Shown in pieces: positions 1,607-44,096 of a stretch of 49,371 nucleotides of DNA; position 1 is the first letter of the stretch; the number at the start of each line of letters is the position of its first letter. The position numbers and the translations under genes were made by a program. The notes beneath the pieces were generated by a model. It did no database searches. It saw nothing but the letters and a program-made list of their open reading frames with translations, and was not told where the DNA came from. Source of the stretch: Prevotella sp. (GTDB lineage: Bacteria; Bacteroidota; Bacteroidia; Bacteroidales; Bacteroidaceae); assembly GCA_017475005.1 (NCBI GenBank), contig JAFVGI010000064.1, forward strand, positions 1 to 49,371, written 5' to 3'.

Positions 1607-1662
1607 TTCTAGTTTCTAGTCTTTCGTTTTTAGTTTCTAGTTACTAACAACTAACAACTAAC
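1607..1662. repeat. Period-7 tandem array, CTAGTTT/CTAACAA class
   Basis: Eight consecutive 7-bp units can be read: TTCTAGT, TTCTAGT, CTTTCGT, TTTTAGT, TTCTAGT, TACTAAC, AACTAAC, AACTAAC. The units drift gradually from TTCTAGT to AACTAAC while keeping exact 7-bp spacing. The array is intergenic. Confidence 0.85.
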
Positions 1663-1780
1663 GCCGCAAATCGGTCTGTGCTCCGCCAGTAAAAGCCTCC
1701 TTATTTTTCAATAACCTTCCCTTATTGTCAGATAAGGCTGCCTTCTTGGATGAGAATTGAGCCCTCCAGTCAAATATTTA

Positions 1781-1839
1781 TTCCCGCCTTGGGAACAAAA
1801 TATTCCCAGTGTGGGAATAAAAAGTTCCCAGCGTGGGAA
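1781..1839. repeat. Three TTCCC-N5-GGGAA palindromes at exact 22-bp spacing
   Basis: Units at 1781-1795, 1803-1817 and 1825-1839 each have TTCCC and GGGAA arms around a five-base centre (GCCTT, AGTGT, AGCGT). Their starts are 22 bp apart, about two helical turns, and the 7-base spacers are A/T-rich. This could be an array of binding sites for a dimeric protein or a palindromic intergenic repeat. The function is unknown. Confidence 0.85.
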
Positions 1840-1901
1840 TAAAAGTTTGTCTATTACCCTAAGTATTTCTTTAATCGAATTCTTATAATAAATCATAAAA
1901 T

Positions 1902-1935
1902 AATCTCCTGATTCTCTGTGATTCAGGAGATTTTT
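1902..1935 (+). terminator. Terminator-like hairpin upstream of 1977
   Basis: A perfect 10-bp stem (1902-1911 with 1923-1932), an 11-base loop and a T run. A T-rich tract also follows the hairpin on the other strand, so it may work both ways. It sits directly upstream of the promoter for the gene at 1977. Confidence 0.65.
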
Positions 1936-1937
1936 AT

Positions 1938-1945
1938 TAATTTTG
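1938..1945 (+). promoter_or_regulatory. Bacteroidales -7 element TAATTTTG
   Basis: The sequence matches the TAnnTTTG consensus 31 bases upstream of the start at 1977. No good TTTG -33 element lies about 20 bp upstream, because the terminator hairpin occupies that place. Confidence 0.5.
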
Positions 1946-1976
1946 CGGTTGCTAAAACTATTGAACAATTAACTCT

Positions 1977-2546
1977 ATGCAAACGAGATTCAAGAAAGGT
2001 ACTAAGGTTTTTGACATTGTCATTACTGCGGTTGCGGCGATGCTGTCGGTGGGTATCATGCTCTATGGGGTGGGACACTTCGGACTGGCTGAGGCGTGGC
2101 CCGAACTGGTTCTCAACGTCTTCTATATCGCCTGCCTGGTGATGATATGGATGTATTTCTTCGACTACCGTATCACTACCCACCAGTTCAACTACTGGTG
2201 CTCTATATCCGTCGGCGCTACGGTGCTGCTGCGCGACATTCTCTTTCCGCCGCCATTGGCCTTCTATTCTCTCCGTGTAGTGTGTCTCATACTTTCGGTG
2301 CTGCTGCTTTGCACGCTGACCTACTTCTATGCACGCAAGAATTGGCAGACATATACCAAGAAAAACCTGTGGGTAATATGTATCATCGACATCATCATTG
2401 CCTCAATATATAACTACTACATATTATATGTTGAGCCTATCACGGAATATACCAACTATATGCTCACGGAGATATGGATTCGTCCTACCATCATGTATGG
2501 TCTCGTGGCTTGCTTCGTGACGGACAAAAAGAAGGAGAAGAATTAA
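1977..2546 (+). CDS. Multi-pass membrane protein of unknown function
   Basis: This 189-residue protein starts with a short basic segment (MQTRFKKGTK) and then has about five or six hydrophobic segments, roughly at residues 14-34, 43-62, 73-88, 95-115, 128-148 and 168-182. It ends in a lysine-rich tail (KKKEKN). I recognise no family motif and give no function. Its own promoter-like element lies upstream. The next gene begins 32 bases after the stop, with a short TTAACGG repeat between them, so the two may be co-transcribed. Confidence 0.75.
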   Translation: MQTRFKKGTKVFDIVITAVAAMLSVGIMLYGVGHFGLAEAWPELVLNVFYIACLVMIWMYFFDYRITTHQFNYWCSISVGATVLLRDILFPPPLAFYSLRVVCLILSVLLLCTLTYFYARKNWQTYTKKNLWVICIIDIIIASIYNYYILYVEPITEYTNYMLTEIWIRPTIMYGLVACFVTDKKKEKN

Positions 2547-2578
2547 CGGTTAACGGTTATTGAAAATAATTATAGAAA

Positions 2579-3400
2579 ATGAAAGAGAGGAAGACAAGAT
2601 TATGGGTGCTTGCTGTCATATTTTGTATCTGTGGCGCTTGCATAACGACTTGCAGCAGCAGCGACGATAACTCTCAGCAGCCTACCGTACAACGTATCAC
2701 GGAGCGTGGCAAGCTGCTGGTGGGAACAACGGGCGACTACCGGCCTCTCTCGTACCGCGAGGCTGACGGCAGCTATTGGGGCTTCGGCATTGAGATGGCA
2801 GAGAAGATTGCCGAGCGTATCGGCGTTGGCGTAGAATTCGTGCAAACCTCATGGCCTACGCTGGCTGACGACGTGCTGGCAGAGCCGCAAACCTTCGACC
2901 TCGCCATCGGTGGCATCACCATTACTGACACGCGAAAGGAGACGATGCTGATGAGTGACGGTTATCTGGTCAATGGCAAGACCATCATTTGCCGCTCGGC
3001 AGATGCTGACCGCTACCAGTCTCTGGCTGATTTGGACAAGTCGGAGGTGCGCGTGATGGTGAACCCGGGAGGGCTGAACGAGAAATTTGCAAACAAGAAC
3101 CTCACCCATGCCACTATCATCGTATATCAGAAGAACGAGGAAATTCCCAATCAGGTGGCTGAGGGCAATGCTGACGTGATGATTACCGAGATTACTGAGG
3201 CTCCGTGGTATGTGAAGAATGACCCACGCCTTGCTGCACCGCTCATAAACAAGCCTTTCAGCCACGGAGAGATTGGGGTGCTGATGCGCAAGGGACAGGA
3301 TGACCTGCTCACCCTTGTAAACGCCGTCATTGCCCAGATGAAGGCTGACGGCAGCCTCCGCAAATTACATGAGAAATACGGATTAGTGTACGCGTATTAA
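2579..3400 (+). CDS. pheC: Lipoprotein of the cyclohexadienyl dehydratase (PheC) / amino-acid-binding type
   Basis: A 273-residue type II periplasmic binding-protein fold. It carries the segments that mark PheC-type cyclohexadienyl dehydratases within this fold: TTGDYRPLSY near residue 50, FVQTSWPTL (Trp92), AIGGITIT near 109, VMVNPGGLNEKFA near 159 and ADVMITEITEA (Glu207). From memory, the Trp, Asn and Glu at these places are the functional residues of Pseudomonas PheC, which turns prephenate into phenylpyruvate and arogenate into phenylalanine. The N-terminus is a lipoprotein signal with Cys25 followed by SSSDD, an acidic run of the kind linked to surface export in Bacteroidetes. A plain amino-acid-binding role remains possible. 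Confidence 0.75.
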   Translation: MKERKTRLWVLAVIFCICGACITTCSSSDDNSQQPTVQRITERGKLLVGTTGDYRPLSYREADGSYWGFGIEMAEKIAERIGVGVEFVQTSWPTLADDVLAEPQTFDLAIGGITITDTRKETMLMSDGYLVNGKTIICRSADADRYQSLADLDKSEVRVMVNPGGLNEKFANKNLTHATIIVYQKNEEIPNQVAEGNADVMITEITEAPWYVKNDPRLAAPLINKPFSHGEIGVLMRKGQDDLLTLVNAVIAQMKADGSLRKLHEKYGLVYAY

Positions 3401-3413
3401 GAGGATAGGGTTT

Positions 3414-4952
3414 CTACGGCATGCTATAGACATGGACGCTGGAGCCTTGGGCGGCGGGCAGGTAATTGATGCCCCACCAACACATCTGTAACAGTACAAA
3501 GGAAATGAGAAGTACCCACAATGCGAGCTTCGGCTTGTGTGTGGGTATTTGTCTGTAATGCACATACACCAGATAGGCGAGCCAGGTGATGGCGGCCCAC
3601 GTCTCCTTGGGGTCCCACGACCAGTAATGTCCCCATGCCTCCTTGGCCCACAATGCACCAAAGAGCATGCCGATGGTAATCAACGATATGCCGACGAAGA
3701 CGAGGTTGTCTAGTTGAGAATTCTTGAGACCTTCGGAACAAGCGTCCCATTGGGCCGAGCGGACAATTGATAATTGACAATTGAAAGTTTTCTCTTTGAC
3801 AAGCAGGAATATTGCTATCAGGGCGGCTGATGCCATGAGGGTATAGGCCAGCATATAGGCGATGATGTGGGGCTTGAACCACGGACTCTGCAGGGCGGGC
3901 ACCAGCTTGTCGGAATGGAGGATGGGCATGAAATGGTGTACGCAGAAGAAACAGGCCGCGATGACTGCACACAGAAGGAATACCGTCTTGGGATGTTTGC
4001 GGGCCTGCTGCACACTTTGTCTCCAAGGTATCGCACGAAGCATCATCAGCAGGGCTCCTGCCAACATCATATAGATGCCCGTATAAACCAACGGCAGCCA
4101 CGGGTCGCTCACCAGTTCCAGAATAGAGTACCGGCTCATGGCTCCCATCTGCGTGTCATAGCCGTATTGGTAGATTTTCCAGCCGTCCACCTCAACGGGT
4201 TTGTTCACTTCCACGGTGGTCTTAAAGGTGAAAGGTGAAAGGTGAAAGTTGAAAGGTGAGTGGTGAGAGGTGAAAGGACTGTTATGAGTTATGATGATGT
4301 CGGAGGCAAAGCGGCGGGGTAAGCCGTCGTCGTAGGTCTCCATGATAAACTCCTTCAGTTCGATGGCGAAGGGCATCTCCACAATATGCTGCTGCGAGGT
4401 CAGCGCACGCCACTCCGGCTCTCCCTTCACCGTAATCATCTTCAGCCGCTGCATGTCGGCATTGCCTAATGTGGCCGTTGTCATAGCGATGAAAAGGCCC
4501 AAATGGTTCAAGAGAAAAGGGAAGTCCTTTTTTAAATTGACAATTGAGAATTGATAATTGACAATTCGTCGAAGGATTATTTGTCCGAGGATGACGGCGA
4601 TATAGACGTAGATGAGTACGAAGGGCCAGAACGACAGCATATTGTTCAGCCACATACCATCCATCGTTTGCCGCGTCAGTCCCATGATGATGGTGAGTAG
4701 AACGGCATAGACCAGTGCGGGGATTGCGGCCTTATGGGTACCGATGAACTGAAAACCATATATCCGTTTACTCAGCAGGAAGATAATAGCGATAAATGCA
4801 AGGAATCCTGCCAAAACGATGCCATTGACCGGCCAGCGGAAGGCATCCCAAACGACAGGGCCGACGCAGAGTTCGAGCATCAGTCCAGCAATGATAATAC
4901 CTCCTCCAATGAGGAAGCCTTCTTTCATTCCGTATGGTTTAGTCCACTTCAA
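3414..4952 (-). CDS. ccsA: Cytochrome c biogenesis protein, ResB/CcsA fusion
   Basis: This 512-residue membrane protein has a short ResB-like N-terminal half (four hydrophobic segments, then a periplasmic loop) and a C-terminal CcsA domain with the tryptophan-rich heme-handling motif WGHYWSWDPKETWAAITW near residue 430. The complex passes heme across the membrane and attaches it to c-type cytochromes. The longest frame begins at TTG 4952; ATG at 4928 (MKEGFLIGGG) is an alternative. Three period-7 arrays lie inside the gene, in frame. One, at 4223-4278, encodes a 7-residue repeat (SPFTSHH, SPFNFHL, SPFTFK) in the periplasmic loop. Its role in anaerobic respiration is inferred from the family. 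Confidence 0.85.
   Translation of the reverse strand: MKWTKPYGMKEGFLIGGGIIIAGLMLELCVGPVVWDAFRWPVNGIVLAGFLAFIAIIFLLSKRIYGFQFIGTHKAAIPALVYAVLLTIIMGLTRQTMDGMWLNNMLSFWPFVLIYVYIAVILGQIILRRIVNYQFSIVNLKKDFPFLLNHLGLFIAMTTATLGNADMQRLKMITVKGEPEWRALTSQQHIVEMPFAIELKEFIMETYDDGLPRRFASDIIITHNSPFTSHHSPFNFHLSPFTFKTTVEVNKPVEVDGWKIYQYGYDTQMGAMSRYSILELVSDPWLPLVYTGIYMMLAGALLMMLRAIPWRQSVQQARKHPKTVFLLCAVIAACFFCVHHFMPILHSDKLVPALQSPWFKPHIIAYMLAYTLMASAALIAIFLLVKEKTFNCQLSIVRSAQWDACSEGLKNSQLDNLVFVGISLITIGMLFGALWAKEAWGHYWSWDPKETWAAITWLAYLVYVHYRQIPTHKPKLALWVLLISFVLLQMCWWGINYLPAAQGSSVHVYSMP
3765..3785. repeat. Period-7 array inside ccsA, AATTGAN class
   Basis: Three units: AATTGAT, AATTGAC, AATTGAA. On the coding strand it contributes FNCQLSIV to the protein, between membrane segments of the CcsA domain. 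Confidence 0.75.
4223..4278. repeat. Period-7 array inside ccsA, GAAAGGT class
   Basis: Eight contiguous units: TAAAGGT, GAAAGGT, GAAAGGT, GAAAGTT, GAAAGGT, GAGTGGT, GAGAGGT, GAAAGGA. The frame stays open on the minus strand and gives a peptide with a 7-residue period in the periplasmic loop. Confidence 0.9.
4535..4565. repeat. Period-7 array inside ccsA, AATTGAN class
   Basis: Units AATTGAC, AATTGAG, AATTGAT, AATTGAC and a partial fifth. It encodes NYQFSIVN after the fourth membrane segment. Confidence 0.85.
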
Positions 4953-5046
4953 AGAGTTAAGAAAATAGCGATAGATGATTTCGATGCAAAAACAGATTGT
5001 TAAATCGCCAAAAGGGGTGCAGAAATTGTTGTAGCGGTTGTAATGG

Positions 5047-6717: not shown

Positions 6718-6732
6718 GCTGTCTTCGTGTTC

Positions 6733-8838
6733 TTATTTTGTAGATGTTACGACAGAAAGGATGCTGATGTTCTCAAGTTGCAGCAGGTAGTCCTTGCTGT
6801 TGTCAAGGAGGGCCTTTTGTTCTTTCTGCAGGTATATTGGGGCATCTTTGCGCAGGGGCAGGATGCGCAGCTCCACATTCTTGCCTGCAAGGTCTGACAT
6901 TCGCACAAGCATGGGCTTGCCGTTCCAGAAATTATCCATGACGAGTTTGCCGTCGGCATATATCCTTGCACAGTCGCCAGCGTAATCTATTTTTAGAAAT
7001 TGATAATTGATAATTGATAATTGAGAATTTGAACCCTTGAACTTTTCAAGGTTTATATTCCAGACAGCTGCATTCTCGAAGTCAGCATCAGTAGGCATTG
7101 CTGCAACTTTCTGCGATCCCATCGGGACAATTCGCGGTGCGGCAGCATCCTTGGTTTTCGTTATCGTTATCGTTTCCGTTTTGGTTTTGGTTTTGGTTTC
7201 CTTCCATTCTTCCTCAACGACTTTTTCGCCATCCTTATATATTATGTTTCCGGCCTTCTTGGCAAAATACAACTTGTCGTCAATCTTGAAAGCCCGCATC
7301 GCCTCATCAGAGGAGAGAAGGGCGACCCCCAAACCTTCGACCTTTGACCTTTGACCTTTGACCTTCGACCATTGCTCCTCTTTCCCATCAACCCACACCT
7401 TTGGTGTCATTCCCTTTATCGGTATGAAATACAGGGTGTTGCCTATCTTGCAGAACGGCTGTGCGTCGGCTGTTATGCAGTGGCCGTTGAAAGGCATATC
7501 GACAGGACGGACATACGCCCTGCCGTCTTCGTTGAGGATACGGACATAGTCGTTATAGAATTCAAAACATCCACGACGGGCATAATGGTCGGAAAGGCTG
7601 TCCACATCCATCTGGCTCAGCATCTCGCCCCAGTCGGCAAGGAACTGGTGGAGCAAGCGCGTCTGGTGGAAGGCATTGATGTTTGGCTGTCCCATCTCTC
7701 CCAGCGGTGCCTGGAAGTCGTACGACATATAGGGCATGTCGTTGTAGTTTGTCACCTTCGTCGCCTGTGTCTCTGCCATAGTATGCTCCGCGCAGTAGGG
7801 ATTTGTTCCTCCGTGATACATGTAATAGCCCGGAAGATTTGAGCCGGAACCTAACTTACAGATTGCCAATGGCATAGCTTCGTTGCCCGACATATTTATG
7901 CGTCTGTGGTATGCCGGCATCATGCCGCCGCCCAGTTCGCATGTCAAATAAGGGTAGGAGAGTGAAGAATCATTGCCCTCGGAGAGTTCTTTCTTGCTGA
8001 AGGTCTCGGTGGCGATGTTGGCATTGATGCGCTGTTCCTTTATGATGAAGGCCTTGGGGTAGTCGCCAGGCATATCGTCGAGGGTGCGGTCCCAGAAGCC
8101 GTCAGCATAGTCGCCATAGAGAGGCAGCAGTTTTCCGAATTCTTCCTTGCCATTGAGCTTCGGCCATCCTGTGCGCGTCATGAAGGGCACGTCAAAACCT
8201 ATATTAACAGCCATATCGCGAAGGGCCATATAGTACCCCCAAGGGCCGCGACACTCGTTCTCTATCTGCACTCCCACAACGGGACCGCCGTCTTTCCACA
8301 GCATTCCCTTGGCCTGAGCGAAGATATTCTCATACAAGTTCTTCGTGGCAGCGAGGAAACCTGGTGCAGTGCTGCGAAGCTTGTAGTTCTTGGGGTCGGA
8401 CAGAGCTTTCTCCACTATCCATACAGGAAAGCCTCCCTGATAGACCTCTCCATGACAGAAAGGACCTATTCTCAGCACGACAGGCATATTCTCCTCCTTA
8501 CAAACCTGCAGGAACTGCCTGAGGTTCTTGTTGCCGCTCCAGTCCCACTGACCTTCTGTTGCCTCATGATGAATCCAGAAGCAGTATGTGGCGATGATGG
8601 TGATACCACCGGCACGCATCTTCTGTATCTCACGCTTCCATTCGGCAGCAGGCACACGAGAGAAGTGTATCTCGCCCATGACAGGCAAAATATGCTTGCC
8701 ACCAACGATGAAACCGCGTGAATCGACTTCAAATGTCACTCCCTGCGGATTGGTCTTTGTTCCAAACGAGAAGGTCTCCTGCGCCATTGCGCACAAGGGC
8801 AGCAGGGAGAAAAGGAGAAGTTTTAATTTATAATTCAT
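6733..8838 (-). CDS. GH35 beta-galactosidase, secreted
   Basis: I take ATG at 8838, giving 701 residues and a clean signal peptide (MNYKLKLLLFSLLPLCAMAQ). The longer frame from TTG 8865 is translated repeat sequence. GH35 landmarks are MGEIHFSRVP, FWIHHEATEGQWDW, LRIGPFCHGE, VVGVQIENE (acid/base Glu195) and LTCELGGGM (nucleophile Glu301). The enzyme should release galactose from oligosaccharides made by the neighbouring GH53. Three repeat-coded segments lie in the C-terminal half: SKVKGQRSKVEG, KTKTKTKTETITITKTK and SQLSIINYQF. The region upstream of the start codon is built entirely of 7-bp repeats that also encode the last residues of the preceding gene. Confidence 0.92.
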   Translation of the reverse strand: MNYKLKLLLFSLLPLCAMAQETFSFGTKTNPQGVTFEVDSRGFIVGGKHILPVMGEIHFSRVPAAEWKREIQKMRAGGITIIATYCFWIHHEATEGQWDWSGNKNLRQFLQVCKEENMPVVLRIGPFCHGEVYQGGFPVWIVEKALSDPKNYKLRSTAPGFLAATKNLYENIFAQAKGMLWKDGGPVVGVQIENECRGPWGYYMALRDMAVNIGFDVPFMTRTGWPKLNGKEEFGKLLPLYGDYADGFWDRTLDDMPGDYPKAFIIKEQRINANIATETFSKKELSEGNDSSLSYPYLTCELGGGMMPAYHRRINMSGNEAMPLAICKLGSGSNLPGYYMYHGGTNPYCAEHTMAETQATKVTNYNDMPYMSYDFQAPLGEMGQPNINAFHQTRLLHQFLADWGEMLSQMDVDSLSDHYARRGCFEFYNDYVRILNEDGRAYVRPVDMPFNGHCITADAQPFCKIGNTLYFIPIKGMTPKVWVDGKEEQWSKVKGQRSKVEGLGVALLSSDEAMRAFKIDDKLYFAKKAGNIIYKDGEKVVEEEWKETKTKTKTETITITKTKDAAAPRIVPMGSQKVAAMPTDADFENAAVWNINLEKFKGSNSQLSIINYQFLKIDYAGDCARIYADGKLVMDNFWNGKPMLVRMSDLAGKNVELRILPLRKDAPIYLQKEQKALLDNSKDYLLQLENISILSVVTSTK
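6998..7032. repeat. Period-7 array inside the GH35 gene, AATTGAT class
   Basis: Five units: AATTGAT three times, then AATTGAG and AATTTGA. Translated on the minus strand it gives SNSQLSIINYQF. Confidence 0.88.
7151..7198. repeat. Period-6 array inside the GH35 gene
   Basis: Eight 6-bp units: TTGGTT, TTCGTT, ATCGTT, ATCGTT, TCCGTT, TTGGTT, TTGGTT, TTGGTT. On the coding strand it makes an alternating Thr-Lys/Thr-Glu/Thr-Ile run. Confidence 0.88.
7333..7374. repeat. Period-7 array inside the GH35 gene, ACCTTTG class
   Basis: Six units: ACCTTCG, ACCTTTG, ACCTTTG, ACCTTTG, ACCTTCG, ACCATTG. It encodes WSKVKGQ RSKVEGL, a 7-residue period. Confidence 0.9.
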
Positions 8839-8895
8839 AATGCACAATGCATAATTGTTCTTCAACGTTCAACGTTCAATATTCAATGTTCAATG
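8825..8895. repeat. Period-7 double array spanning the DUF5107/GH35 gene junction
   Basis: Two adjoining arrays. 8825-8859 reads AATTTAT, AATTCAT, AATGCAC, AATGCAT, AATTGTT. 8861-8895 reads TTCAACG, TTCAACG, TTCAATA, TTCAATG, TTCAATG. Together they cover the last codons and stop of the DUF5107 gene, the whole 37-base gap and the GH35 start codon. Confidence 0.9.
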
Positions 8896-11800
8896 ATTTC
8901 AGCGCGTGTATGGCGAGGTGGTTGGGGTCGAGGGCCTCTACCTCTGTAATATACTGTGCTGCTTTCTCTGTATTGCCCATGCCGAAGTATCCCAGGGCAA
9001 GCATCAGTTTGCAGTGTATCTGATTCGCAGTATTGAGGTCACCCTCCCATATCTGCAGGTCAGGCAGCGAGACGGCAAAGTAGTCCATCACCACATTGTC
9101 GAAGAGATGCTGCTTGCCATAGTTCAGCAGTTTGTAGAAGCGTCCGTTAGCCTCGCCGTCACGTCCCAGTTTGCGTAATGCTAGACCCTGATAGAATATC
9201 TTCTCAGGCTTCGCATCGTTGTAGTACATGGCGGCAGCAGGTTCTTGCGGACCTTTGGTAGCCTCTTCCCAGCATTCGCGGGCCTTGTCCGTTTCCCCCA
9301 GTTTCTCGTAGGCACATCCCAGGAAGTAATAGAAATCACTCTCCTGTGCACCGTACAGCTTGCCTTCACCGAGGTGATGTGGATATTCCAGACACTCCTT
9401 CAGGAGTCGAATAGCCTCTGTTGGCTGAGAGTCATCAATCAGCTTCTTCGCCAGTTCTGTGCGTGCCAGCTGATACTGTGCAGGCACCTTTCCTTCACCA
9501 CCTTCCCAAGCGTGAAAATTATGGGCATCGATGAATTGCATGGCTTCCTCATAATGGCCTGTAAGATTGAGAAGTGTGGCATATTCCAGTTTCAGGTCTT
9601 CTCGTGTCTCCACCATATCAAGATGTTTCTGCATCTCCGCCAGCCGCTCTGTGTGGGGTTTGCCAAGACGTTTGTAGAGTTGGTCAAGCTCCATGTAGAT
9701 GCGGGCATCTGTCTTGTCGAGCTCAAAGGCCTTCTCCATATAACTAACGGCTTTTTCTGCTTGATGTTGTTTATTGAAATATGAAAGTGCTAGATTTCTC
9801 CATACAGTCGGGAAAGCCGGATTCTGCTCACGGCTGCTCTCCCAATGCTCTGTCGCAACGTCGTATTGGCGTTTGTCATAGTACAGGCATCCCAAGTAAT
9901 AATGGGCCTTGCTGGCGTTAGGAGCATCCTTTGTGGCAGCCATCAGTGCCAGGATGTCATCTATGCGGTTAGGGAAGCAGTAATCAGGATTTGCCTTTTC
10001 TGCTTCTGCCAGATATTTCGCATTGTGATTGCCATAAAAATAAAGGTAGTAAAATGTCATAGGAGTTGCTGCTCCTGCCTCTATGGACATTTCCAGAATC
10101 TTCTCCACATCATCAGAAAGTCCTGCAGCGGCATAGTCGAGGGCCAGTTCCTGATAGTTGTTCGGCATTCCGTGCATGAGAACTTTCATCTTTTCATATT
10201 CTCCGAGTTCGTAGAGGCAACCATAGTTGAAGAGGTCTGTCTTCAGGGCTTCCTCGCAGACATCCTTCATCTCCGCCTTCTTGCCCATGAGCCTCAGAAC
10301 GGTGGCCTTCAGCGCCAGGGCCTTCTGGTTATGCGCATTGTTGTTGAGGCAGCGACGCAGTTCCTCCCAGGCATCGTCAAGACGTTCTTCCATAACACTA
10401 ATCTTTGCTGCCTCGAAGTATCCGGCATCTGCCCATGCCTTGTTCCATGTGACCTTCCAGAAAAGATTATAGGCTTCTTTCCTGACCTTAGACCTCAGAC
10501 CTTCGTCCTTTGACTTGAAACTCTGGTATTTCAGGCAGATAGCCAGATTATACAGCGGTTCGCCGTCATACGGTTGCGGATTGCGTTTCATGGAGAGTTT
10601 TACAGCCTTTCTGAGGTAACCCTCTGCCTTGTTGAGGCGTCCCTTGCGGATATACCACAGTCCCATGGCATTCAGGCATCGTATATCGTTAGGATCACGA
10701 CGCAGAGCCTCCTCATAGTAATCTGTAGCAATATATGTAGCATGACGGTACTGCTCGATATGCATACCTGTCAGATACAGCTGCTCGTTGGTCTTTATCT
10801 GCTCAGGGAGCAGGGCAGCTTCGGCAGCATCAGGGATGGGGCGTATCTCGTCTGGCTCCGGTGCCCAGGTAAGAACGGGGCGCTCCTTGCCATACTGCTC
10901 CTTGTATATTGTCAGCTCTATCCAATCTGTTTTTGCAGCAAGACTTTCGCACAGCACTGCCTCAGGGCTTATTGTACGGCGCTCATCATAAAGGATTTTG
11001 CCGCTTTTATCGGTGAAAATGATGTGGATATCCTGTTTGCTGGTACCTTGTATCTTGAATTGATATTCTCCTTTCTGGGTTTCTTCTATGCCGAAGACAA
11101 TGTCCTTGCTGGCATTCTTTACCATTCCCACCTCACGGTAAGGCATGAAATACTGCACAAACTGCTTCTCTTCGTACGGCATGAGCCATGTGAAGTCCGG
11201 TTGGTTTTCTGTATAGACACCCGCCATCAGTTCGATATAAGGTCTGTAGATACCCCTCTCGTCCTTGTCCGTCAGCGAGCGGTCCCAGGCGCGTCCGAAA
11301 TCTCCGTTACCCCATGTCCACTGCTTCTTGCCGGGAGAGAAATGGTTGGAGGCTACATGCAGCATACCTGCCTGAGTGTCGTTTTCATAACCACCTTCGA
11401 AGTTGTATTTCGAGTTGACAGCCATATATGATGTCGGCACCTTGATATTCTTGTAGTTAGAGATGTCCACTCCAGAAGAATAGTCCATCTTATAGTAAGT
11501 GCCAGTAGCGATAGGGAACGATGAAACCGCACGTTTTCCGTGGTCGAAGACCGCATTGACATCCTGTGGGAAGACACTTTGGTAGGCATCATTGACCTCT
11601 ACGGCAGGATTTGCCCACCACAGGAACGTCTGTGACACATCAGTACGATTGTACAGCTGGCCTTTTATTTCGAGGTATGCACACCCGGGGCGCAGAGTGA
11701 AACCTGCCATACCCTTCTGGTGGAACATCTTCTCGTTCTCGCTCACCCATACTGTCACGGAGCCGTCCTCGTTCTCTTCTATCGTGCTGTCAACAGGCAG

Positions 11801-12178
11801 GTAGGTGCTTGGACGATGGTGCTGAGGCCAGTTAAACTCAATGCCGCCGCTGATCCAAGGACCGAGAAGACCCACAAGGGCCGGCTTTATCACATTATTA
11901 TAATATACGAAGTGGCGCTGACGAATCTTGTCGTATGCCATTTGTACTCTGCCTCCCAGCTCAGGGAGTATCATAACCTTTATGTACTCATTCTCCAACC
12001 AAACGGCCTGCCATTCGTGGTCAACAGGCTTTTCTTCGATTGATTCAATAACAGGGTAGGGATATACCACACCACTGGAACCTTGATAGACACGCTTCTC
12101 AAGGAATATAGGATTTTTTTCTGCCTTACCTACCTCATACGTAGGAATAACAACTGTCTCACGCCAAGCTTTTACCAT
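8876..12178 (-). CDS. DUF5107 domain plus TPR-repeat protein
   Basis: 1100 residues starting at ATG 12178, with no signal peptide, so probably cytoplasmic. The N-terminal part (about 50-360) is the DUF5107 domain, a galactose-mutarotase-like beta-sandwich, with stretches such as LPELGGRVQMAYD, GPWISGGIEFNWPQHHRPS and TFLWWANPAVEV. The rest (about 455-1095) is a chain of tetratricopeptide repeats. Proteins of this architecture sit in carbohydrate clusters of Bacteroidetes, but I know of no secure reaction and assign none. It lies between the sugar transporter and the GH35 gene, so a role in handling the imported sugar is an inference. A 7-bp array at 10484-10518 is translated as part of the TPR region (FKSKDEGLRSKVRKEA), and the last six residues (SLNIEY) are also repeat-coded. 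Confidence 0.85.
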   Translation of the reverse strand: MVKAWRETVVIPTYEVGKAEKNPIFLEKRVYQGSSGVVYPYPVIESIEEKPVDHEWQAVWLENEYIKVMILPELGGRVQMAYDKIRQRHFVYYNNVIKPALVGLLGPWISGGIEFNWPQHHRPSTYLPVDSTIEENEDGSVTVWVSENEKMFHQKGMAGFTLRPGCAYLEIKGQLYNRTDVSQTFLWWANPAVEVNDAYQSVFPQDVNAVFDHGKRAVSSFPIATGTYYKMDYSSGVDISNYKNIKVPTSYMAVNSKYNFEGGYENDTQAGMLHVASNHFSPGKKQWTWGNGDFGRAWDRSLTDKDERGIYRPYIELMAGVYTENQPDFTWLMPYEEKQFVQYFMPYREVGMVKNASKDIVFGIEETQKGEYQFKIQGTSKQDIHIIFTDKSGKILYDERRTISPEAVLCESLAAKTDWIELTIYKEQYGKERPVLTWAPEPDEIRPIPDAAEAALLPEQIKTNEQLYLTGMHIEQYRHATYIATDYYEEALRRDPNDIRCLNAMGLWYIRKGRLNKAEGYLRKAVKLSMKRNPQPYDGEPLYNLAICLKYQSFKSKDEGLRSKVRKEAYNLFWKVTWNKAWADAGYFEAAKISVMEERLDDAWEELRRCLNNNAHNQKALALKATVLRLMGKKAEMKDVCEEALKTDLFNYGCLYELGEYEKMKVLMHGMPNNYQELALDYAAAGLSDDVEKILEMSIEAGAATPMTFYYLYFYGNHNAKYLAEAEKANPDYCFPNRIDDILALMAATKDAPNASKAHYYLGCLYYDKRQYDVATEHWESSREQNPAFPTVWRNLALSYFNKQHQAEKAVSYMEKAFELDKTDARIYMELDQLYKRLGKPHTERLAEMQKHLDMVETREDLKLEYATLLNLTGHYEEAMQFIDAHNFHAWEGGEGKVPAQYQLARTELAKKLIDDSQPTEAIRLLKECLEYPHHLGEGKLYGAQESDFYYFLGCAYEKLGETDKARECWEEATKGPQEPAAAMYYNDAKPEKIFYQGLALRKLGRDGEANGRFYKLLNYGKQHLFDNVVMDYFAVSLPDLQIWEGDLNTANQIHCKLMLALGYFGMGNTEKAAQYITEVEALDPNHLAIHALKSLNIEY
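10484..10518. repeat. Period-7 array inside the DUF5107-TPR gene, GACCTTA class
   Basis: Five units: GACCTTA, GACCTCA, GACCTTC, GTCCTTT, GACTTGA. It is related in sequence to the ACCTTTG array of the GH35 gene and lies in frame at a TPR helix. Confidence 0.75.
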
Positions 12179-12196
12179 TTTTTTTATTTTAGTATT

Positions 12197-12250
12197 ATAG
12201 GTCCTATAGGTCCTATAGGTCCAATAGGACTAATAGGACTAATGGGTTAA
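12197..12250. repeat. Period-9 array between the MFS and DUF5107 genes
   Basis: Six 9-bp units: ATAGGTCCT, ATAGGTCCT, ATAGGTCCA, ATAGGACTA, ATAGGACTA, ATGGGTTAA. The left part is self-complementary (GGTCCTATAGGACC-like), so the transcript could fold. It fills most of the 76-base gap between two genes of the galactan operon. Confidence 0.88.
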
Positions 12251-12254
12251 TAAT

Positions 12255-14598: not shown

Positions 14599-15330
14599 AT
14601 GAAAAAAGTGATTTTATTGATGTCTGCCGTCATGATGGTGACATTGGGTGCTTTTGCACAGAAGAGTGAGTTGGGAGAAGGTGCTGACATAAATACAAGG
14701 TTTCTTTCGGACGAAGAATGTCTCAAGTGTGTCATCAGCCTGCCACAGCCACCGTCTGAGACGAGTGAGAAATTTGCTAACGATGTAAAATTATACAAGT
14801 CGGGAAAAGAAGAATGTGAGAAAAAGAATATCCGCGAGGAGACATTGCGCGAAGATGAAACATCGATGTTTGCGCTGTTCAGCAGTGTCCTGGGCATGAA
14901 GGTGAGCAAGAATGATACTCCAGAAATCTATAAACTTGCGAAGACTGCTATGAATGACGGTCTCTTTGCTGCCTATAAAGGACAGGAGCATTTCAAGCGC
15001 ACAAAGCCCTATGTGTATTTTCACGACGAGTCGCTGGCATCAAAGGATGGTGGTGTAAAAGACAAGGAGAATAGCTATCCCAGCGAATATTCCACAAAAG
15101 GCTGGATACTTGCACTTATTCTGGGTGTCATAGCACAAGAACATTCTGAGGCTTTGATAAAATGTGCAGAACAGTACGCTGCTTATCGAGTGAAAATGGG
15201 ACGCAACTGGAAAAGTGACATCGACGCAGGAAGAACTCTCGCAATAACAATATTCTCAAAGGAGGTAGTGAATCCTGAATACAAGCAACAATTGCTCAAG
15301 GCGAAAGCCGAATATAAGAGTAAGAGGTAA
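14599..15330 (+). CDS. Secreted class A acid phosphatase (PAP2) homologue lacking catalytic residues
   Basis: 243 residues with a signal peptide ending near AFAQ21. The body aligns by eye with bacterial class A non-specific acid phosphatases (PhoC type): EHFKRTKPYVYF, NSYPSEYSTKGW, YRVKMGRNWKSDIDAGR and the C-terminal QQLLKAKAEY. Every signature is damaged. KxxxxxxRP reads Q129 to K136-P137. PSGH reads PSEY (161-164), so the acid/base His is Tyr. SRxxxxxHxxxD reads Y196-R197 to N203 with D207, so the nucleophile His is Asn. It is therefore probably not a phosphatase and may bind a ligand or be decaying, although the frame is intact. The gene may share a transcript with the AraC gene or use the promoter at 14545. 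Confidence 0.75.
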   Translation: MKKVILLMSAVMMVTLGAFAQKSELGEGADINTRFLSDEECLKCVISLPQPPSETSEKFANDVKLYKSGKEECEKKNIREETLREDETSMFALFSSVLGMKVSKNDTPEIYKLAKTAMNDGLFAAYKGQEHFKRTKPYVYFHDESLASKDGGVKDKENSYPSEYSTKGWILALILGVIAQEHSEALIKCAEQYAAYRVKMGRNWKSDIDAGRTLAITIFSKEVVNPEYKQQLLKAKAEYKSKR

Positions 15331-15341
15331 GAGGAGAGAAG
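15314..15341. repeat. Short period-7 array at the stop codon of the phosphatase homologue
   Basis: Units ATAAGAG, TAAGAGG, TAAGAGG, AGAGAAG. They encode the last residues (YKSKR) and the stop, and nearly touch the convergent miaB stop at 15346. Confidence 0.6.
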
Positions 15342-22998: not shown

Positions 22999-23229
22999 TT
23001 AAAAAAGATTCTCTCCATTCTCATATAGGGGTTCTATAAAGAGTGATGAGTTATCTTGATGTTCATACATTTGCTCATGTTGTTTCTCTGTTTCCATAAG
23101 TGCACTATTATGTCCGTTGAGCGCTGCGAAAGGGGCAAACTGAGCTGCTCTGTTTCACATTGACATAGGAGTATGTTTCTTGGAAACATGGTGTGGAAGG
23201 TTGATGATTTCTTCGTAATTATCGTTCAT
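22999..23229 (-). pseudogene. Y-polymerase companion protein (LPHHVSKKH family) broken by an in-frame TGA
   Basis: The frame opens at ATG 23229, overlapping the polymerase stop (ATGA), and reads MNDNYEEIINLPHHVSKKH, then TPMSM. A TGA codon (codon 25, 23157-23155) follows, and the same frame continues as NRAAQFAPFAALNGHNSA to a TAA at 22999-23001. The pieces on both sides of the TGA belong to the small uncharacterised protein that commonly follows UmuC-like polymerases in Firmicutes and some gut Bacteroidetes, in which LPHHVSKKH, MSM and AAQFAPFAAL occur without a break. The simplest reading is a nonsense mutation. Readthrough or a sequencing error would also fit. Confidence 0.8.
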
Positions 23230-24746
23230 GCTTTGTGTCCTCCAATTTGATTGTTGCGTTCTTTTGCTGTCGCACCTTCCTCAAAATTCAACCCTCTTAA
23301 GATTGCATTTTTTCCAAAGCGTTTTTTGATTGAGATTTGTGTCTCTTGAATGCGGCGTTCTTTATCCAGTCGTTTCTTTTCTGCTTTTTCTTGTTTTCTT
23401 TTTTGTTCGTAGTCGGTAAATAAGTCTAGCTGTTTGATGCTCTCTTCTTTGGCAATGTTTTCTTCTCGTATTACGTTGTTAACGGTGATGTTGAGTCTGC
23501 GTATTAACAAATCTTTGTTAACGATTTCATCATATAATTTTGTTACGGCTTCTGTTATAAGTTGGGTTGAAGATGTAGGATGTAAGAGGTTTATACTGCC
23601 ATGAGCAGATTTCGGGACCATTTTTCCGTAATAGTTTGCCTTTATTTCTCCATGATATTTGGCTTGGATTGCTTCATTGGTAAGGTTTTCGGCATCATAT
23701 CCAACGTATATGATTACTTGGTCGGTAACGAGTCGTAGGGAAACAAGTTTTAAGGCCATACTATCGGCCATCTCCATAATAACAATCCGTGCTTTCTTAT
23801 TATTATAAGGTGAAGACAATACCTGTCCGTTGCTGAAAGAATTCCTTTCTGGCCTATATGCCTTTATCACGTCCATGGTGCATGGTTCCCATCCCCAGGC
23901 ATGATCTATCAGTAACTCCGCATTTACGCCAAAGAGATTATATAGTAAATCTTCGTTGTATTCCGACATAAGAGCAACCTTCCCCATAGTGTCAATACCA
24001 TATCGGCTCAGAGACTTTGCTATTCCGTGTCCCACACGCCAAAAGGCTGTTATGGGGCGATGGTTCCACAACTTTTGACGATATGTCATTTCATCTAGTT
24101 CGGCAATGCGCACTCCGTCTTTATTGAGCGGTGTCTTCTTTGCCATAATATCCATTGCCACTTTTGCCAAATATAGATTTGTGCCAATGCCTGCTGTAGC
24201 TGTTATGCCTGTCTGCTTGAGTACATCACGAATTATCTTGATAGCAAGTTCGTAGGCAGTCAGATTGTAGCTATCAAGGTAATTGGTAACATCTATAAAA
24301 ACTTCGTCAATGGAGTATACATGAATGTCTTCAGCAGCTATGTAATTCAGATAAATGTCATATATCTTCGAACTTACCTCTATATAATGTGCCATCCTAG
24401 GAGGGGCAGCGATATAATCTACGGCCCAATCAGGATGTGCCTTCAGTTCAATATCGGAAAAGGATTTGCCTGTCAGACGATGCGATGGAAGTGAGTCCTT
24501 TCGTTGGCAATTAATACTTTGCACACGTTGTATAACTTCAAAAAGACGTGCCCTGCCTTCAATACCATATTGTTTCAGTGATGGAGAAACAGCGAGGCAT
24601 ATGGTTTTCTCTGTTCTGCTGACGTCGGCAACTACAAGATTGGTGGTTAGAGGGTCAAGATTCCTTTCTACGCATTCAACAGATGCGTAGAAAGATTTTA
24701 AATCAATGGCTATATATGTGCGCTTTTTGTCCTTAACGGTTCTCAA
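23226..24746 (-). CDS. Y-family DNA polymerase (UmuC/DinB-like)
   Basis: 506 residues. Translesion polymerase with catalytic carboxylates in YIAIDLKSFYASVEC (Asp15) and YSIDEVFIDV (Asp147, Glu148). TAGIGTNLYLAKVAMD and the later HhH region (FWRVGHGIAKSLSRYGI) also fit. The wording of the N-terminus (DLKSFYASVECVERNLDPLTTNLVVAD) is that of the Firmicutes UvrX/YqjW branch, and the companion gene downstream points the same way, so transfer from that group is possible. The start is probably TTG at 24746: no ATG lies nearby, and the frame overlaps the upstream esterase by 14 bases, which suggests coupling. Confidence 0.92.
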   Translation of the reverse strand: MRTVKDKKRTYIAIDLKSFYASVECVERNLDPLTTNLVVADVSRTEKTICLAVSPSLKQYGIEGRARLFEVIQRVQSINCQRKDSLPSHRLTGKSFSDIELKAHPDWAVDYIAAPPRMAHYIEVSSKIYDIYLNYIAAEDIHVYSIDEVFIDVTNYLDSYNLTAYELAIKIIRDVLKQTGITATAGIGTNLYLAKVAMDIMAKKTPLNKDGVRIAELDEMTYRQKLWNHRPITAFWRVGHGIAKSLSRYGIDTMGKVALMSEYNEDLLYNLFGVNAELLIDHAWGWEPCTMDVIKAYRPERNSFSNGQVLSSPYNNKKARIVIMEMADSMALKLVSLRLVTDQVIIYVGYDAENLTNEAIQAKYHGEIKANYYGKMVPKSAHGSINLLHPTSSTQLITEAVTKLYDEIVNKDLLIRRLNITVNNVIREENIAKEESIKQLDLFTDYEQKRKQEKAEKKRLDKERRIQETQISIKKRFGKNAILRGLNFEEGATAKERNNQIGGHKA

Positions 24747-33143: not shown

Positions 33144-33159
33144 AAAAAATGATAATTAT

Positions 33160-33194
33160 GATTTATGCATTGTGCATTATGCATTATGAATTAA
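33160..33194. repeat. Period-7 array at the nadA/cysS junction, GCATTAT class
   Basis: Units GATTTAT, GCATTGT, GCATTAT, GCATTAT, GAATTAA. It includes the nadA stop codon. The minus-strand sequence at the DUF5107/GH35 junction (8825-8859) is nearly the same, so this class occurs at least twice and in both orientations relative to the genes. Confidence 0.85.
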
Positions 33195-34410: not shown

Positions 34411-34430
34411 AAACTTTTTCCCTAACTAGC

Positions 34431-34634: not shown

Positions 34635-34665
34635 TTGCAAAAACAGGCAGAAAACCATACCTTTG
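34635..34665 (+). promoter_or_regulatory. Promoter of the three-linker RNA (TTG, 20 bp, TACCTTTG)
   Basis: TTG at 34635-34637 and a perfect TACCTTTG at 34658-34665 are 20 bp apart, with no open reading frame downstream. Confidence 0.8.
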
Positions 34666-34671
34666 CACCCG

Positions 34672-34880: not shown

Positions 34881-34919
34881 GTGTGATATCATAGATAAAG
34901 TGAAAAAAATCAAGTTTTT

Positions 34920-34951
34920 CTTGCATTTTTCACGACTTAATTGTACCTTTG
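34920..34951 (+). promoter_or_regulatory. ssrA promoter (CTTG, 20 bp, TACCTTTG)
   Basis: CTTG at 34920-34923 and TACCTTTG at 34944-34951 are 20 bp apart, about 44 bases upstream of the mature tmRNA 5' end. Confidence 0.82.
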
Positions 34952-34995
34952 CACACGCAATTTAAAAAAGCCCTCATTAAGGGGCGCACTATTTT

Positions 34996-35393: not shown

Positions 35394-35395
35394 CT

Positions 35396-38910: not shown

Positions 38911-38924
38911 AAACGAATGATAAT

Positions 38925-41840: not shown

Positions 41841-41846
41841 CACTAT

Positions 41847-44033
41847 TTATTCTGCTGGTACAAAATCCAATTGTTTCTTTTCGACATTAGCTTTGGAGAC
41901 CTTAATAGTGATAGGGTCTCCAAGATTATATCTGTTGTGATGTCTGCGACCTACGAGACAGAAATTCTTCTCGTCAAAGTCATAATAGTCGTCTTTTAGA
42001 TCTTGCAGACTTATCATTCCTTCACAATGGTTTTCATCAATCTCGCAGTAAATGCCGTAACTGGTTAAGCCGCTGATATGAGCCTCAAACTCTTCTCCTA
42101 CGAATTGTCCCATGAATTCTACCATTTTATATTTGATAGAATCGCGTTCTGCCATAGCAGCAGTCTGTTCCTGTTGGGAAGAATGTTCGCATAATTCTTC
42201 GTATTTATCTTCGCTGGCACTCTTTCCTCCTTCTTCGTAACGAGTGAGTAGTCGATGTACCATAGTATCAGGATAACGTCTAATGGGTGATGTGAAATGT
42301 GTATAGTAATCGAAGGCAAGTCCGAAATGCCCTATGTTGTGAACAGAATATTTGGCCTTCATCATTGCTCTTAATGCAACCATCTGAATGGCATTGCTTT
42401 CAGGTTTTCCTTCTATTTCATCCATAAGGGTATTGACGGCACGTGCAGTAGCTCCTTTTGTACCAGTAGATTTCATCTTGTAGCCAAACTTGGTAACAAA
42501 GGAACGAAGAGTCTCCATCTTCTGCGGATCTGGGGAATCATGGATTCGATAGGGTAGGGTCTTTGCTTTTGCAGGTTTGCCGCCTTTGGTCTTCTTTACT
42601 TTTCCTACGTGTTCTGCAACAGTTTTATTTGCCAAAAGCATAAACTCTTCTATTAGTTTGTTAGCATCTTGGCTTCTCTTAACATAGCAGCGTATGGGCT
42701 TACCTTTTTCATCTATGTCAAAACGCATTTCCTCTCGATCAAACCGTACGGAACCATTCTTGAAACGTCTTTCTCTAAGTTTCTTTGCTAATCTGTCAAG
42801 AGTGAGTAACTGTTCAGAATATGGGTCTTCCACCTTATCACGATTCATTATACCTGGTCTGCTACTTTCTATGACAGCCTGAACCTCTTCGTAAGCATAG
42901 CGGCGATTGCTCTTTATGACAGTATGTACAATACGGTATTTCTTTACATTAGCTTCCTCATCAAGCAGGAAGATGACACTATAAGCTAGTTTTTCTTCAT
43001 TTGGACGGAGTGAACAGATATAGTTACATAGTCTTTCTGGAAGCATAGGAATGGTTCTGTCTACAAGATATACCGAAGTAGCACGTTTTTGTGCCTCTTT
43101 GTCAATGATAGAGCCCTCTGTAACATAATGTGAGACATCTGCAATGTGAACACCAACTTCCCAAAGATTACCTTCTTTTCTGATAGATAGAGCATCGTCA
43201 AAGTCTTTTGCATCATGTGGATCGATGGTACATGTCCATATATCCCTAAAGTCTTCACGCTTTTCCAGTTCTTCCTTAGTAATGGCATCTGAAATCTTAT
43301 TGGCGGCATCTTCCACTTCCTTTGGATATTTGTAGGGCAAACCATATTGTGCCAGAATAGTATGCATCTCAGCATCGTTATCACCTTGTTTACCGAGTAT
43401 ATCAACGACTTCAGCAATTATACTGCGTTGTTCGCCATCTGGCCATGATATTACTTTTACAACAGCTTTGTCATTAGTTTTACCTTTTTTCAGTCTTTCC
43501 TTAGGAATAATGATGCTTGTAGTAATAGTTTCTGTCGGTAAAAGATATGCAAATCCTTTATCTACCTTCAGTTTTCCTACAAATTGGTCTTTCTTGCGTT
43601 GTAAAATCTCAACTACTCGTGCTTCGCGGATGTGATTGCGTTTGCGAGCCATCATCATGATTTGTACCCTATCGCCATTCATAGCAAACAAGGAGTTACG
43701 TTCTGCTACGAAGATAGGATTTTCGGAACCATCTGGAATAACGCTATTCCTTCCATTTGCCTTCGCTTGAAAGGTGCCGACTAGAGTCTGGGTGTTGTCA
43801 GCAAGTTTGTAACTGGTATCAGATATTTTGATAAGGTAGTCATCCCATGCCATCTCTTCCATGATGTCTATAGCGAGCATCTTAAGAGGATGAGTGTCAA
43901 GATGTAAGAATTTGAAAATCTGTTTTAATGAGAAGGTCTCGTTTGGATTACTTGAAAAGAAAGCCTCCAGTCTCTCAATAAGTTGTGCTCTCGTTAAGCG
44001 TTTTCCGCCTTTCTTTCTTCTAGTTTTAGCCAT
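41847..44033 (-). CDS. rnr: Ribonuclease R
   Basis: 728 residues from ATG 44033 (MAKTRRKKGGKRLTRAQLIE); the longer frame from TTG 44060 is weaker. Domains in order: N-terminal winged helix, cold-shock OB folds (GTFQAKANGRNSVIPD and DKGFAYLLP), the RNB catalytic domain (CTIDPHDAKDFDDALSI and the later HFTSPIRRYPDTMVHRLL) and a C-terminal S1 domain (GEEFEAHISGLTSYGIYCEI). RNase R degrades structured RNA and works with tmRNA in clearing stalled mRNAs; ssrA is about 7 kb away. Confidence 0.96.
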   Translation of the reverse strand: MAKTRRKKGGKRLTRAQLIERLEAFFSSNPNETFSLKQIFKFLHLDTHPLKMLAIDIMEEMAWDDYLIKISDTSYKLADNTQTLVGTFQAKANGRNSVIPDGSENPIFVAERNSLFAMNGDRVQIMMMARKRNHIREARVVEILQRKKDQFVGKLKVDKGFAYLLPTETITTSIIIPKERLKKGKTNDKAVVKVISWPDGEQRSIIAEVVDILGKQGDNDAEMHTILAQYGLPYKYPKEVEDAANKISDAITKEELEKREDFRDIWTCTIDPHDAKDFDDALSIRKEGNLWEVGVHIADVSHYVTEGSIIDKEAQKRATSVYLVDRTIPMLPERLCNYICSLRPNEEKLAYSVIFLLDEEANVKKYRIVHTVIKSNRRYAYEEVQAVIESSRPGIMNRDKVEDPYSEQLLTLDRLAKKLRERRFKNGSVRFDREEMRFDIDEKGKPIRCYVKRSQDANKLIEEFMLLANKTVAEHVGKVKKTKGGKPAKAKTLPYRIHDSPDPQKMETLRSFVTKFGYKMKSTGTKGATARAVNTLMDEIEGKPESNAIQMVALRAMMKAKYSVHNIGHFGLAFDYYTHFTSPIRRYPDTMVHRLLTRYEEGGKSASEDKYEELCEHSSQQEQTAAMAERDSIKYKMVEFMGQFVGEEFEAHISGLTSYGIYCEIDENHCEGMISLQDLKDDYYDFDEKNFCLVGRRHHNRYNLGDPITIKVSKANVEKKQLDFVPAE

Positions 44034-44054
44034 AGTTATCTTAGGTTTATATTT

Positions 44055-44096
44055 TCTCAACTAATGATTCTCAACTCTCCCTCTCTCCCTCTAACT
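44055..44096. repeat. Weak period-7 array between ctpA and rnr
   Basis: It can be read as TCTCAAC, TAATGAT, TCTCAAC, TCTCCCT, CTCTCCC, TCTAACT. Some neighbouring units are out of register, so it is the least certain member of the set. Confidence 0.4.

Follow-up and report, generated by a model that had tools for sequence, protein, structure and literature searches.

Tandem arrays with a 7-bp period in a Prevotella genome: placement, units and comparison across species

The window analysed here is the whole of contig C59 (JAFVGI010000064.1, 49,371 nucleotides [nt]) from a metagenome-assembled genome of Prevotella sp. (GCA_017475005.1; 2,361,937 bases or 2.36 Mb, 72 contigs, 81% estimated completeness). 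It carries a dispersed family of short tandem arrays which share a period of 7 bp and which are the subject of this report. Arrays were located with Tandem Repeats Finder (TRF) and a custom run-scoring scan (threshold 12; a lower threshold of 8 was also used), and genes were called with a home-made open reading frame (ORF) and codon scorer. Several array counts depend on these score thresholds, which under-count arrays of two and three units. According to TRF, period-7 arrays start at positions 1606, 1643, 2543, 3762, 4224, 4535, 6998, 7333, 8824, 8861, 10484, 15315, and 33155 of the window. The arrays and the two ORFs that contain several of them are as follows.

1606..1662, no strand assigned: TTTCTAG passing into ACTAACA, 8 units, in the same-strand gap from a SusD-like gene (Pfam) to the next ORF
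2543..2559, no strand assigned: weak TTAACGG array, 2.4 units, score 10, at the stop codon of ORF 1977-2546; absent from the list of the sequence-only reading that preceded this analysis
3414..4952, minus strand: ORF with ResB and cytochrome c assembly (CcsA) domains (Pfam PF05140, PF01578) and three arrays inside
3762..3784, minus strand: in-gene array of the AATTNTC class (coding strand), score 10, site 3 of the ResB-CcsA ORF (residues 390-397)
4224..4277, minus strand: in-gene array, 7.7 units of AAAGGTG (coding strand CCTTTCA), site 2 of the ResB-CcsA ORF (residues 226-243)
4535..4566, minus strand: in-gene array of 32 nt, AATTNTC (coding strand), site 1 of the ResB-CcsA ORF (residues 129-140)
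6733..8865, minus strand: ORF for a GH35 glycosyl hydrolase (Pfam PF01301) with two arrays inside
6998..7029, minus strand: in-gene array of 32 nt, AATTGAT (coding strand AATTNTC), C-terminal part of the GH35 ORF (residues 613-623)
7333..7374, minus strand: in-gene array, ACCTTTG/ACCTTCG, 6 units, GH35 ORF (residues 498-511)
8824..8855, no strand assigned: TAATTCA/TAATGCA, at the start of the GH35 ORF
8861..8895, no strand assigned: TTCAATG, 5 units, across the stop codon (8876) of a DUF5107-TPR gene
10484..10502, no strand assigned: marginal GACCTCA array, 2.7 units, score 9, within the DUF5107-TPR ORF 8876-12178
15315..15334, no strand assigned: marginal TAAGAGG array, 3 units, score 8, at the stop codon of ORF 14599-15330
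33155..33193, no strand assigned: TTATGCA, 5.6 units, from the nadA stop codon toward the cysS start

The sequence-only reading had placed the arrays in gaps, across stop codons, near starts, and within genes, and this is what was found. Nearly all of the sites that it listed were recovered by TRF, those at 10484 and 15314 being marginal. The site at 44055-44096 did not stand: neither TRF nor run scoring found a period-7 array there (score 0), and it is period 8 that scores 10. In the array at 1606..1662, the second part looks by eye roughly complementary to the first.

The period is far from what composition would give. At threshold 12, the window holds 8 period-7 arrays against a mean of 0.03 in 60 dinucleotide-preserving shuffles; at threshold 8, it holds 12 against 0.82 in 100 shuffles. 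Among periods 3-24, only 14 (4 arrays) and 21 (3 arrays) exceed one array besides period 7, and both are harmonics. A sample of the same genome (60 pieces, 980,048 bases, 41% of the assembly) contains 186 period-7 arrays, followed by period 6 with 24, period 11 with 20, and fewer for all others, and shuffling (three shuffles per piece) yielded no period-7 array at all. Two further sets were scanned, one made up of 109 relatives' loci (1.37 Mb) and the other of 620 kb of the close relative G098; in the named collection, the closest loci come from metagenome assemblies of rumen Prevotella and Bacteroidaceae. The first set contains 151 period-7 arrays against 28 for the next period, the second 87 against 11; related genomes are not independent trials, and 80 of the relatives' loci were fetched via the ResB-CcsA protein, so that in-gene arrays are over-sampled among these 80. 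The prediction that period 7 would be in excess, both in the genome itself (186 vs. 24, and 0 in shuffles, on 980,048 of 2,361,937 bases) and in related genomes (151 vs. 28; 87 vs. 11), is thus confirmed.

Smaller samples were taken from other genomes. The close relatives G193, G109, and G256 have 3 arrays in 42 kb, 2 in 55 kb, and 0 in 51 kb, respectively. In G515 and G417, which belong to one genus of another family of the order, period 7 likewise dominates, with 7 arrays in each 100 kb sample; none of the 14 lies within a called gene, and for 11 of them the unit is not one of the 56 types of the Prevotella genome. G403 has 2 period-7 arrays in 56 kb and G587 has 0 in 51 kb. No period-7 array of this kind was found in the 100 kb of Escherichia coli K-12 that were scanned. 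With arrays of score 12 or more masked, two-copy period-7 duplications are represented by 39 non-coding runs of at least 7, within the range of other periods (18-48); the preference for seven therefore lies mainly in expansion beyond about two units.

Two contigs are exceptionally rich. Contig C7 (L008) packs 29 period-7 arrays into 14.9 kb and includes extended composite runs in which the unit switches while the 7-bp register holds; contig C33 (L164) has 10 in 8.3 kb.

Most arrays lie outside genes. Of the 186 in the genome sample, 107 are intergenic, 59 partly overlap a called gene, and 20 are inside one. Their density per kb of gap is 2.38 in convergent, 1.81 in tandem, and 0.41 in divergent gaps (1.25, 1.50, and 0.39 in G098). 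Array midpoints fall 0-25 nt past a stop in 65 cases, compared to 3.4 for random genome positions, and 52 arrays span a stop codon. At -5 to +1 of the stop there are 40 array starts, where uniform placing within each gap predicts 22.4 (137 arrays; another 16 start further inside the gene). By the same calculation, this excess at the stop itself is absent in the 80 relatives' loci (11 vs. 15.6 expected; 59 arrays, 17 further inside). Among 99 array-stop pairs are cases in which the units contain the gene's own stop (e.g., TAA CGGTTAA).

Strand preference is tied to the stop. When an array abuts or spans it, the G-rich strand is the coding strand rather than the non-coding strand in 50:11 cases in the genome itself, 29:3 in G098, and 27:4 in the relatives. 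At 4-30 nt from the stop the ratios are 19:8, 2:6, and 5:4, and at 31-200 nt the bias is gone (20:16, 7:8, and 2:6). Of the arrays in tandem gaps that lie nearer the stop, 45/65, 24/28, and 20/25 are on the coding strand. A preference for the non-coding strand upstream of starts was not significant in these data.

Such placement might suggest that the arrays serve as back-up stop codons: seven leaves a remainder of one upon division by three, so that three units give a stop in every frame behind a gene. Consistent with this are the 52 of 186 arrays that span a stop codon, the coding-strand bias at the stop, and the recurrence of sense stops at +7, +14, +21, and +28 (19, 15, 13, and 12% of 368 cases with free downstream DNA in the genome sample, vs. 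4-10% at other offsets from +3 to +45). However, only +7 stands out in the relatives' loci (11% of 479; +14, +21, and +28 are at 5-6%), the strand bias is lost at 31-200 nt, arrays also occur inside genes without sense stops (in 16 of the 20 in-gene arrays, stops are confined to the antisense strand), and periods 4, 5, 8, 10, and 11 would do equally well. In tandem gaps, arrays with only sense and only antisense stops are equally frequent (14 and 14). On this last point and on the loss of strand bias away from the stop, we reject back-up stops as the main cause and consider this explanation very improbable.

At 8056-8318 of L131 and in its G098 counterpart, an array lies between a stop codon and what looks by eye like a terminator hairpin, with units CGTTTAA and TAGAGTT, respectively.

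Within genes, arrays recur at fixed linkers, as illustrated by the ResB-CcsA gene. Counting arrays with a score of at least 9 in the relatives' loci, site 1 has one in 31 of 80, site 3 in 15 of 78, and site 2 in 4 of 80, while 11 control stretches of the same gene have 0 to 5 arrays each, 10 altogether. Site 1 alone shows 15 unit types. In L051, it consists of a single 11-nt seed, AATTATCAATT; the genome itself, L067, L097, L098, and L100 have this seed (up to the free letter discussed below) plus 21 nt, in frame. Array presence at site 1 changes at least 16 times, and unit class at least 23 times, on a gene tree (81 rows, array columns excluded) in which 43 of 77 inner branches are poorly supported. 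Linker length modulo 21 was also tried as a test but is not diagnostic, as site 1 has the same commonest residue whether or not an array is present.

As a side observation on this gene, ResB and CcsA match as two segments, broken near residue 305-317 of the fused ORF of the window, in relatives L097, L098, L100-L109, L111, L112, L114, L116-L122, and L124-L130.

Array sites are also shared across species, which were compared with one genome per species. The stretch with cysS and nadA has 91% identity to the Prevotella genome in G193, 88% in G098, 85% in G256, and 77% in G109. In the nadA-cysS gap of G193, the array is one 7-nt unit shorter and has one substitution; the whole gap differs by 8, owing to another change. 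G109 has a different heptad array, CGCTAAC/CGTTAAC, in the same place. In the GH35 gene, the anchored stretch with array 6998 is 21 nt longer and that with array 7333 is 9 nt shorter than in G098.

A systematic comparison covered 94 orthologous gaps between the Prevotella genome and G098 (mean identity 87%). Arrays are found on both sides in 8 gaps, in the Prevotella genome alone in 4, in G098 alone in 5, and on neither side in 77. Permutation within gap-length bins gives a mean of 1.98 shared gaps and a maximum of 7 in 5000 trials, so that sites are shared beyond chance expectation; the units there are usually altered. A second set of 73 gap pairs over four relatives, which overlaps the first, has arrays on both sides in 8, one-sided arrays in 3 and 3, and none in 59. 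For the 8 same-site pairs, the mean unit distance is 1.4 (two pairs identical, two at 3), compared to 2.3 between different sites. Because same-site units are closer than different-site units, change in place is indicated rather than replacement from elsewhere, and wholesale replacement of arrays from other loci is weakened as an explanation. Reading unit gain and loss from gap lengths was given up: there is no multiple-of-7 signal at 87% identity, and only single cases are clean.

The 186 arrays of the genome sample represent 56 unit types, out of an estimated 1,170 or so possible ones. The sequence-only reading had called the units unrelated, and in this it has to be corrected. They share a degenerate consensus, YTNTNAM, beyond what composition accounts for: an expectation-maximization fit over rotation and strand (12 restarts) reaches a log-likelihood of -8.47 per unit, while the best of 60 null sets (6 restarts each) reach -8.64 when the letters of the units are shuffled, -8.77 with AT-matched genome 7-mers, and -9.23 with unmatched ones. 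Inherited relatedness of unit types inflates this score, and YTNTNAM therefore shows a family of units, not a binding site. Units drift along arrays as had been noted before, with adjacent ones most alike (Hamming distance 1.07 at lag 1, rising to 2.39 at lag 9).

The class AATTNTC shows a single free position. In arrays found without asking for that motif, the units deviate by position in 1, 0, 7, 1, 36, 0, and 0% in the genome itself (85 units, 21 arrays) and in 0, 2, 0, 0, 30, 0, and 2% in the relatives (61 units, 16 arrays). At the free position the letters are nearly even (G30 A18 C18 T19), but they are not independent along an array: lag-1 identity is 37/95 (expected 0.26), and 131/259 in viral arrays (80 of at least 120 stretches). 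Other classes vary at more than one position, and their favoured variable position is less clean. Over arrays of at least four units with at least two deviations, the top position takes a share of 0.66 in the genome itself, 0.71 in the relatives, and 0.68 in G098, where random placing gives 0.46, 0.50, and 0.46. Array ends were discarded as evidence on the free position, since edge AATTNTC units (80 of the at least 120 viral stretches) deviate at all six positions.

Six nearly fixed positions and one free one, in the genome itself as in its relatives, together with the preferred size of about four units described below, are features that binding sites might have. A protein docking every 7 bp could select the units, contacting six positions and ignoring one, much as omega, a ribbon-helix-helix protein, binds the contiguous parS heptads of plasmid pSM19035 (PMC9499535). 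Several findings speak against binding sites: a single genome, when sampled, has 56 unit types, and another family mostly has others; units change at a kept site; arrays lie within unrelated genes; and both strand orientations occur in gaps away from stops. We regard binding sites as an unlikely cause.

The AATTNTC class is widespread but patchy. Within the order, 103 of 295 genomes (82 of 184 genera) contain the exact pattern AATTNTCAATTNTCAATT, as do 59 of 296 genomes of a draw from the phylum (39 of 140 genera); the Prevotella genome is included in both cases, and many positive genomes have only one to three matches. The reversed pattern used as a control is mostly at zero; as it is itself a heptad class in this genome (TTAACTN, 33 matches), it is a conservative rather than a neutral control. 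Even within a genus the number of matches varies widely, with 92 in G403 and 0 in G587, and 94 in G515 and 0 in G417. Because G417 has as many arrays per 100 kb as G515, the patchiness there is one of units, not of arrays. Viral contigs contributed at least 120 stretches with AATTNTC arrays (36 for the reversed control), and some of these contigs may contain host DNA.

Arrays have a preferred size. Counted in full units at a score of at least 10, the mode is four in the genome itself (85/231), in G098 (37/102), and in the relatives (82/184). Without a score threshold, AATTNTC runs of at least 16 nt are also commonest at four units (10/28 in the genome itself, 12/22 in the relatives, 68/161 in viruses; G098 has only 2 such runs) and become rare at five, falling from 10 to 4, from 12 to 1, and from 68 to 10, respectively. 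The viral runs come from 80 of the at least 120 stretches and were fetched by a pattern needing at least three units, so that the fall after four is their informative part. Other unit classes, again without threshold, mostly peak at two units and have few runs above four; in some sets the numbers go up again at four (CTNTTCA in relatives 10, 3, 8; CTTNGAC in G098 3, 2, 6; CTNTAAA in G098 10, 5, 7). Arrays of 30-32 nt are frequent, accounting for 47 of 116 coding arrays in relatives and 46 of 214 non-coding arrays in the genome itself.

A four-unit size has been attributed to nucleic-acid structure, namely G-quadruplexes, in the GGGAATC repeats of Xanthomonas (PMC4692102), and the size preference, the intergenic bias, and the scarcity in divergent gaps described there are matched here. 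Unit composition speaks against it, however: neither GGG nor CCC occurs in any of the 56 consensus units (read cyclically, on both strands; single variant units may contain them, as in L161), yet four units is the mode. We consider such structures a scarcely credible cause in this genome, and the data speak against G-quadruplexes as the general reason for the four-unit size.

A polymerase could also write whole arrays en bloc, copying about six nt, adding one untemplated nt, and repeating this at seed sites in the manner of template jumping or of a reverse transcriptase. This would suit the nearly even letters at the free position, the frequent 30-32-nt arrays, which correspond to an 11-nt seed plus 21 nt, the lack of a clear excess of two-copy intermediates, and the patchiness of AATTNTC even within a genus. 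The free letter is non-random along arrays, however, which indicates that copying between units takes place as well; in other classes, more than one position varies; and G417, without AATTNTC, has as many arrays as G515. En bloc writing is, in our view, improbable.

We consider it somewhat likelier than even (a probability of about 55%) that the arrays arise by slippage in 7-nt steps, combined with homogenisation in place and selection on where arrays stay. During replication, the growing and the template DNA strands would misalign in steps of seven nucleotides, making and reshaping arrays, with a step largely independent of the local letters. Slippage would also homogenise the units of an array in place. 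Selection would only decide at which sites arrays survive, keeping them out of promoters and, within genes, free of sense stops and in frame. Of this explanation, the period, the drift, the conservation of sites with change of unit, the placement, and, in single cases, length steps of 7 and 21 nt are observed, while replication slippage is the probable actor. The earlier proposal of one generating mechanism fares well in so far as a single process with a 7-nt step best fits the drift and the dominance of period 7 over many units and genomes; the protein or polymerase footprint that it invoked is a putative source of the step.

Several observations weigh against slippage. It leaves without account why the step is seven and why four units are usual, and neither the drop after four AATTNTC units nor the one free position of that class follows from plain slippage. 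Blind slippage predicts neither that units share a consensus nor that AATTNTC recurs across the phylum. Array density is unequal among close relatives (from 0 in G256 to 87 in 620 kb in G098). Two of the 8 same-site pairs have units as far apart as those of different sites, and just 1 of 15 non-zero length differences between orthologous array gaps is a multiple of 7, although other indels may hide steps. Differences in array copy number are known from between-species comparison only.

The comparable cross-species sites and the measurable quantities, namely the 7-nt step, the four-unit limit of AATTNTC, the free position, and the stop anchoring, must be reproduced by any model. A heptad-binding protein or a stuttering polymerase would have to explain why the step is seven, why there is a limit at four units, and why one position is free. 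Rumen Prevotella-type bacteria, at about 190 arrays per Mb, would be a practical system for finding the replication or repair enzyme that sets the step.

Repeats of other periods were seen alongside. Period-6 arrays form a second, smaller family in the genome sample, with unit AAAACG (CGTTTT) in 15 of 24 and 17 of 24 within genes; one of period 6 at 7154-7201 of the window, in the GH35 ORF, encodes a Lys-Thr-rich run. Period-11 and period-22 arrays are intergenic in 19 of 20 and 12 of 12 cases, with units such as AAAGGGGAGTG, and the window has a 22-bp unit, TGGGAATAAAAAATTCCCAGCG, at 1790-1844 that is partly self-complementary by eye. Period-9 arrays, TATAGGTCC / ATAGGACTA, lie at 12196-12243 directly upstream of the DUF5107-TPR gene. 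A gene for a Y-family (IMS) DNA polymerase is located at 23226-24746.

Contiguous heptads are known from several systems. In the plasmid centromere parS of pSM19035, the heptad motif is WATCACW. A WATCACW-type unit is absent from the 56 types of the Prevotella genome sample, and one such type, AAGTGAT, occurs in 2 of 151 relatives' arrays (compared by unit only). Omega binds the contiguous heptads of this parS (PMC9499535); the likeness lies in contiguous 7-bp repeats with degenerate positions, but parS is one centromere with one motif, whereas many loci and many motifs are involved here.

Cyanobacterial STRR sequences are heptanucleotide tandem repeats, and they resemble the present arrays as tandem heptanucleotides spread over the genome. 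They had been named as the nearest parallel by the sequence-only reading, which knew of no worked-out description in Bacteroidales. This view is not supported. TAACTGA heptamer arrays occur in marine Beggiatoaceae, cyanobacteria, and five Bacteroidetes (MacGregor, 2015; PMC4679880), and GGGAATC/(GGGANTN)n arrays in Xanthomonas and GGGGAYT in Nostoc are treated, with a citation of Calothrix heptanucleotides, in Rehm (2015; PMC4692102).

The TAACTGA arrays are likewise heptameric, mostly intergenic, and patchy across species, and between two close Cyanothece strains their indels are mostly of 7 nt (PMC4679880). They are built of one unit and, in the genome chiefly examined there, mostly lie directly before start codons; TAACTGA is absent from the 56 unit types of our genome sample (186 arrays).

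The Xanthomonas arrays mostly have four units, are 89-93% intergenic with 7-8% in divergent gaps, and lie near ORFs, preferentially on the coding strand when downstream and on the non-coding strand when upstream; two species mostly carry them in the same intergenic places, although the arrays differ in sequence and length and some unit positions are variable, and their four-unit size has been linked to G-quadruplexes (PMC4692102). The four-unit mode, the intergenic bias, the scarcity in divergent gaps, and the downstream half of the strand rule are shared by the arrays described here, while the upstream half is not significant. Unlike the Xanthomonas and Nostoc type, the Prevotella consensus units are devoid of G-tracts, many unit types coexist in one genome, and in-gene arrays recur at fixed linkers. 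A general bacterial activity might underlie the heptamers of Bacteroidales, Xanthomonas, Nostoc, and Beggiatoaceae with lineage-specific units, writing about six templated nt and one free nt per step, with about four steps per event, at seeds in permissive DNA; we offer this as a speculation with little probability.

The over-representation of heptameric simple sequence repeats (SSRs) in many bacteria was noted in 2007, together with the proposal that the period reflects the DNA segment held by the polymerase (Mrazek and others, as reported in PMC4692102); a worked-out cause of this excess was not found in the open-licence literature. The present arrays agree with those SSRs in that period 7 stands out over composition and over other periods (186 vs. 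24 vs. 0) and in being mainly intergenic (107/186). The heptamer excess as such has thus already been published. As far as those SSRs are described in that source, what is added here is the anchoring at stop codons, the in-gene hotspots, the degenerate consensus, the site-by-site comparison across species, and the free position.

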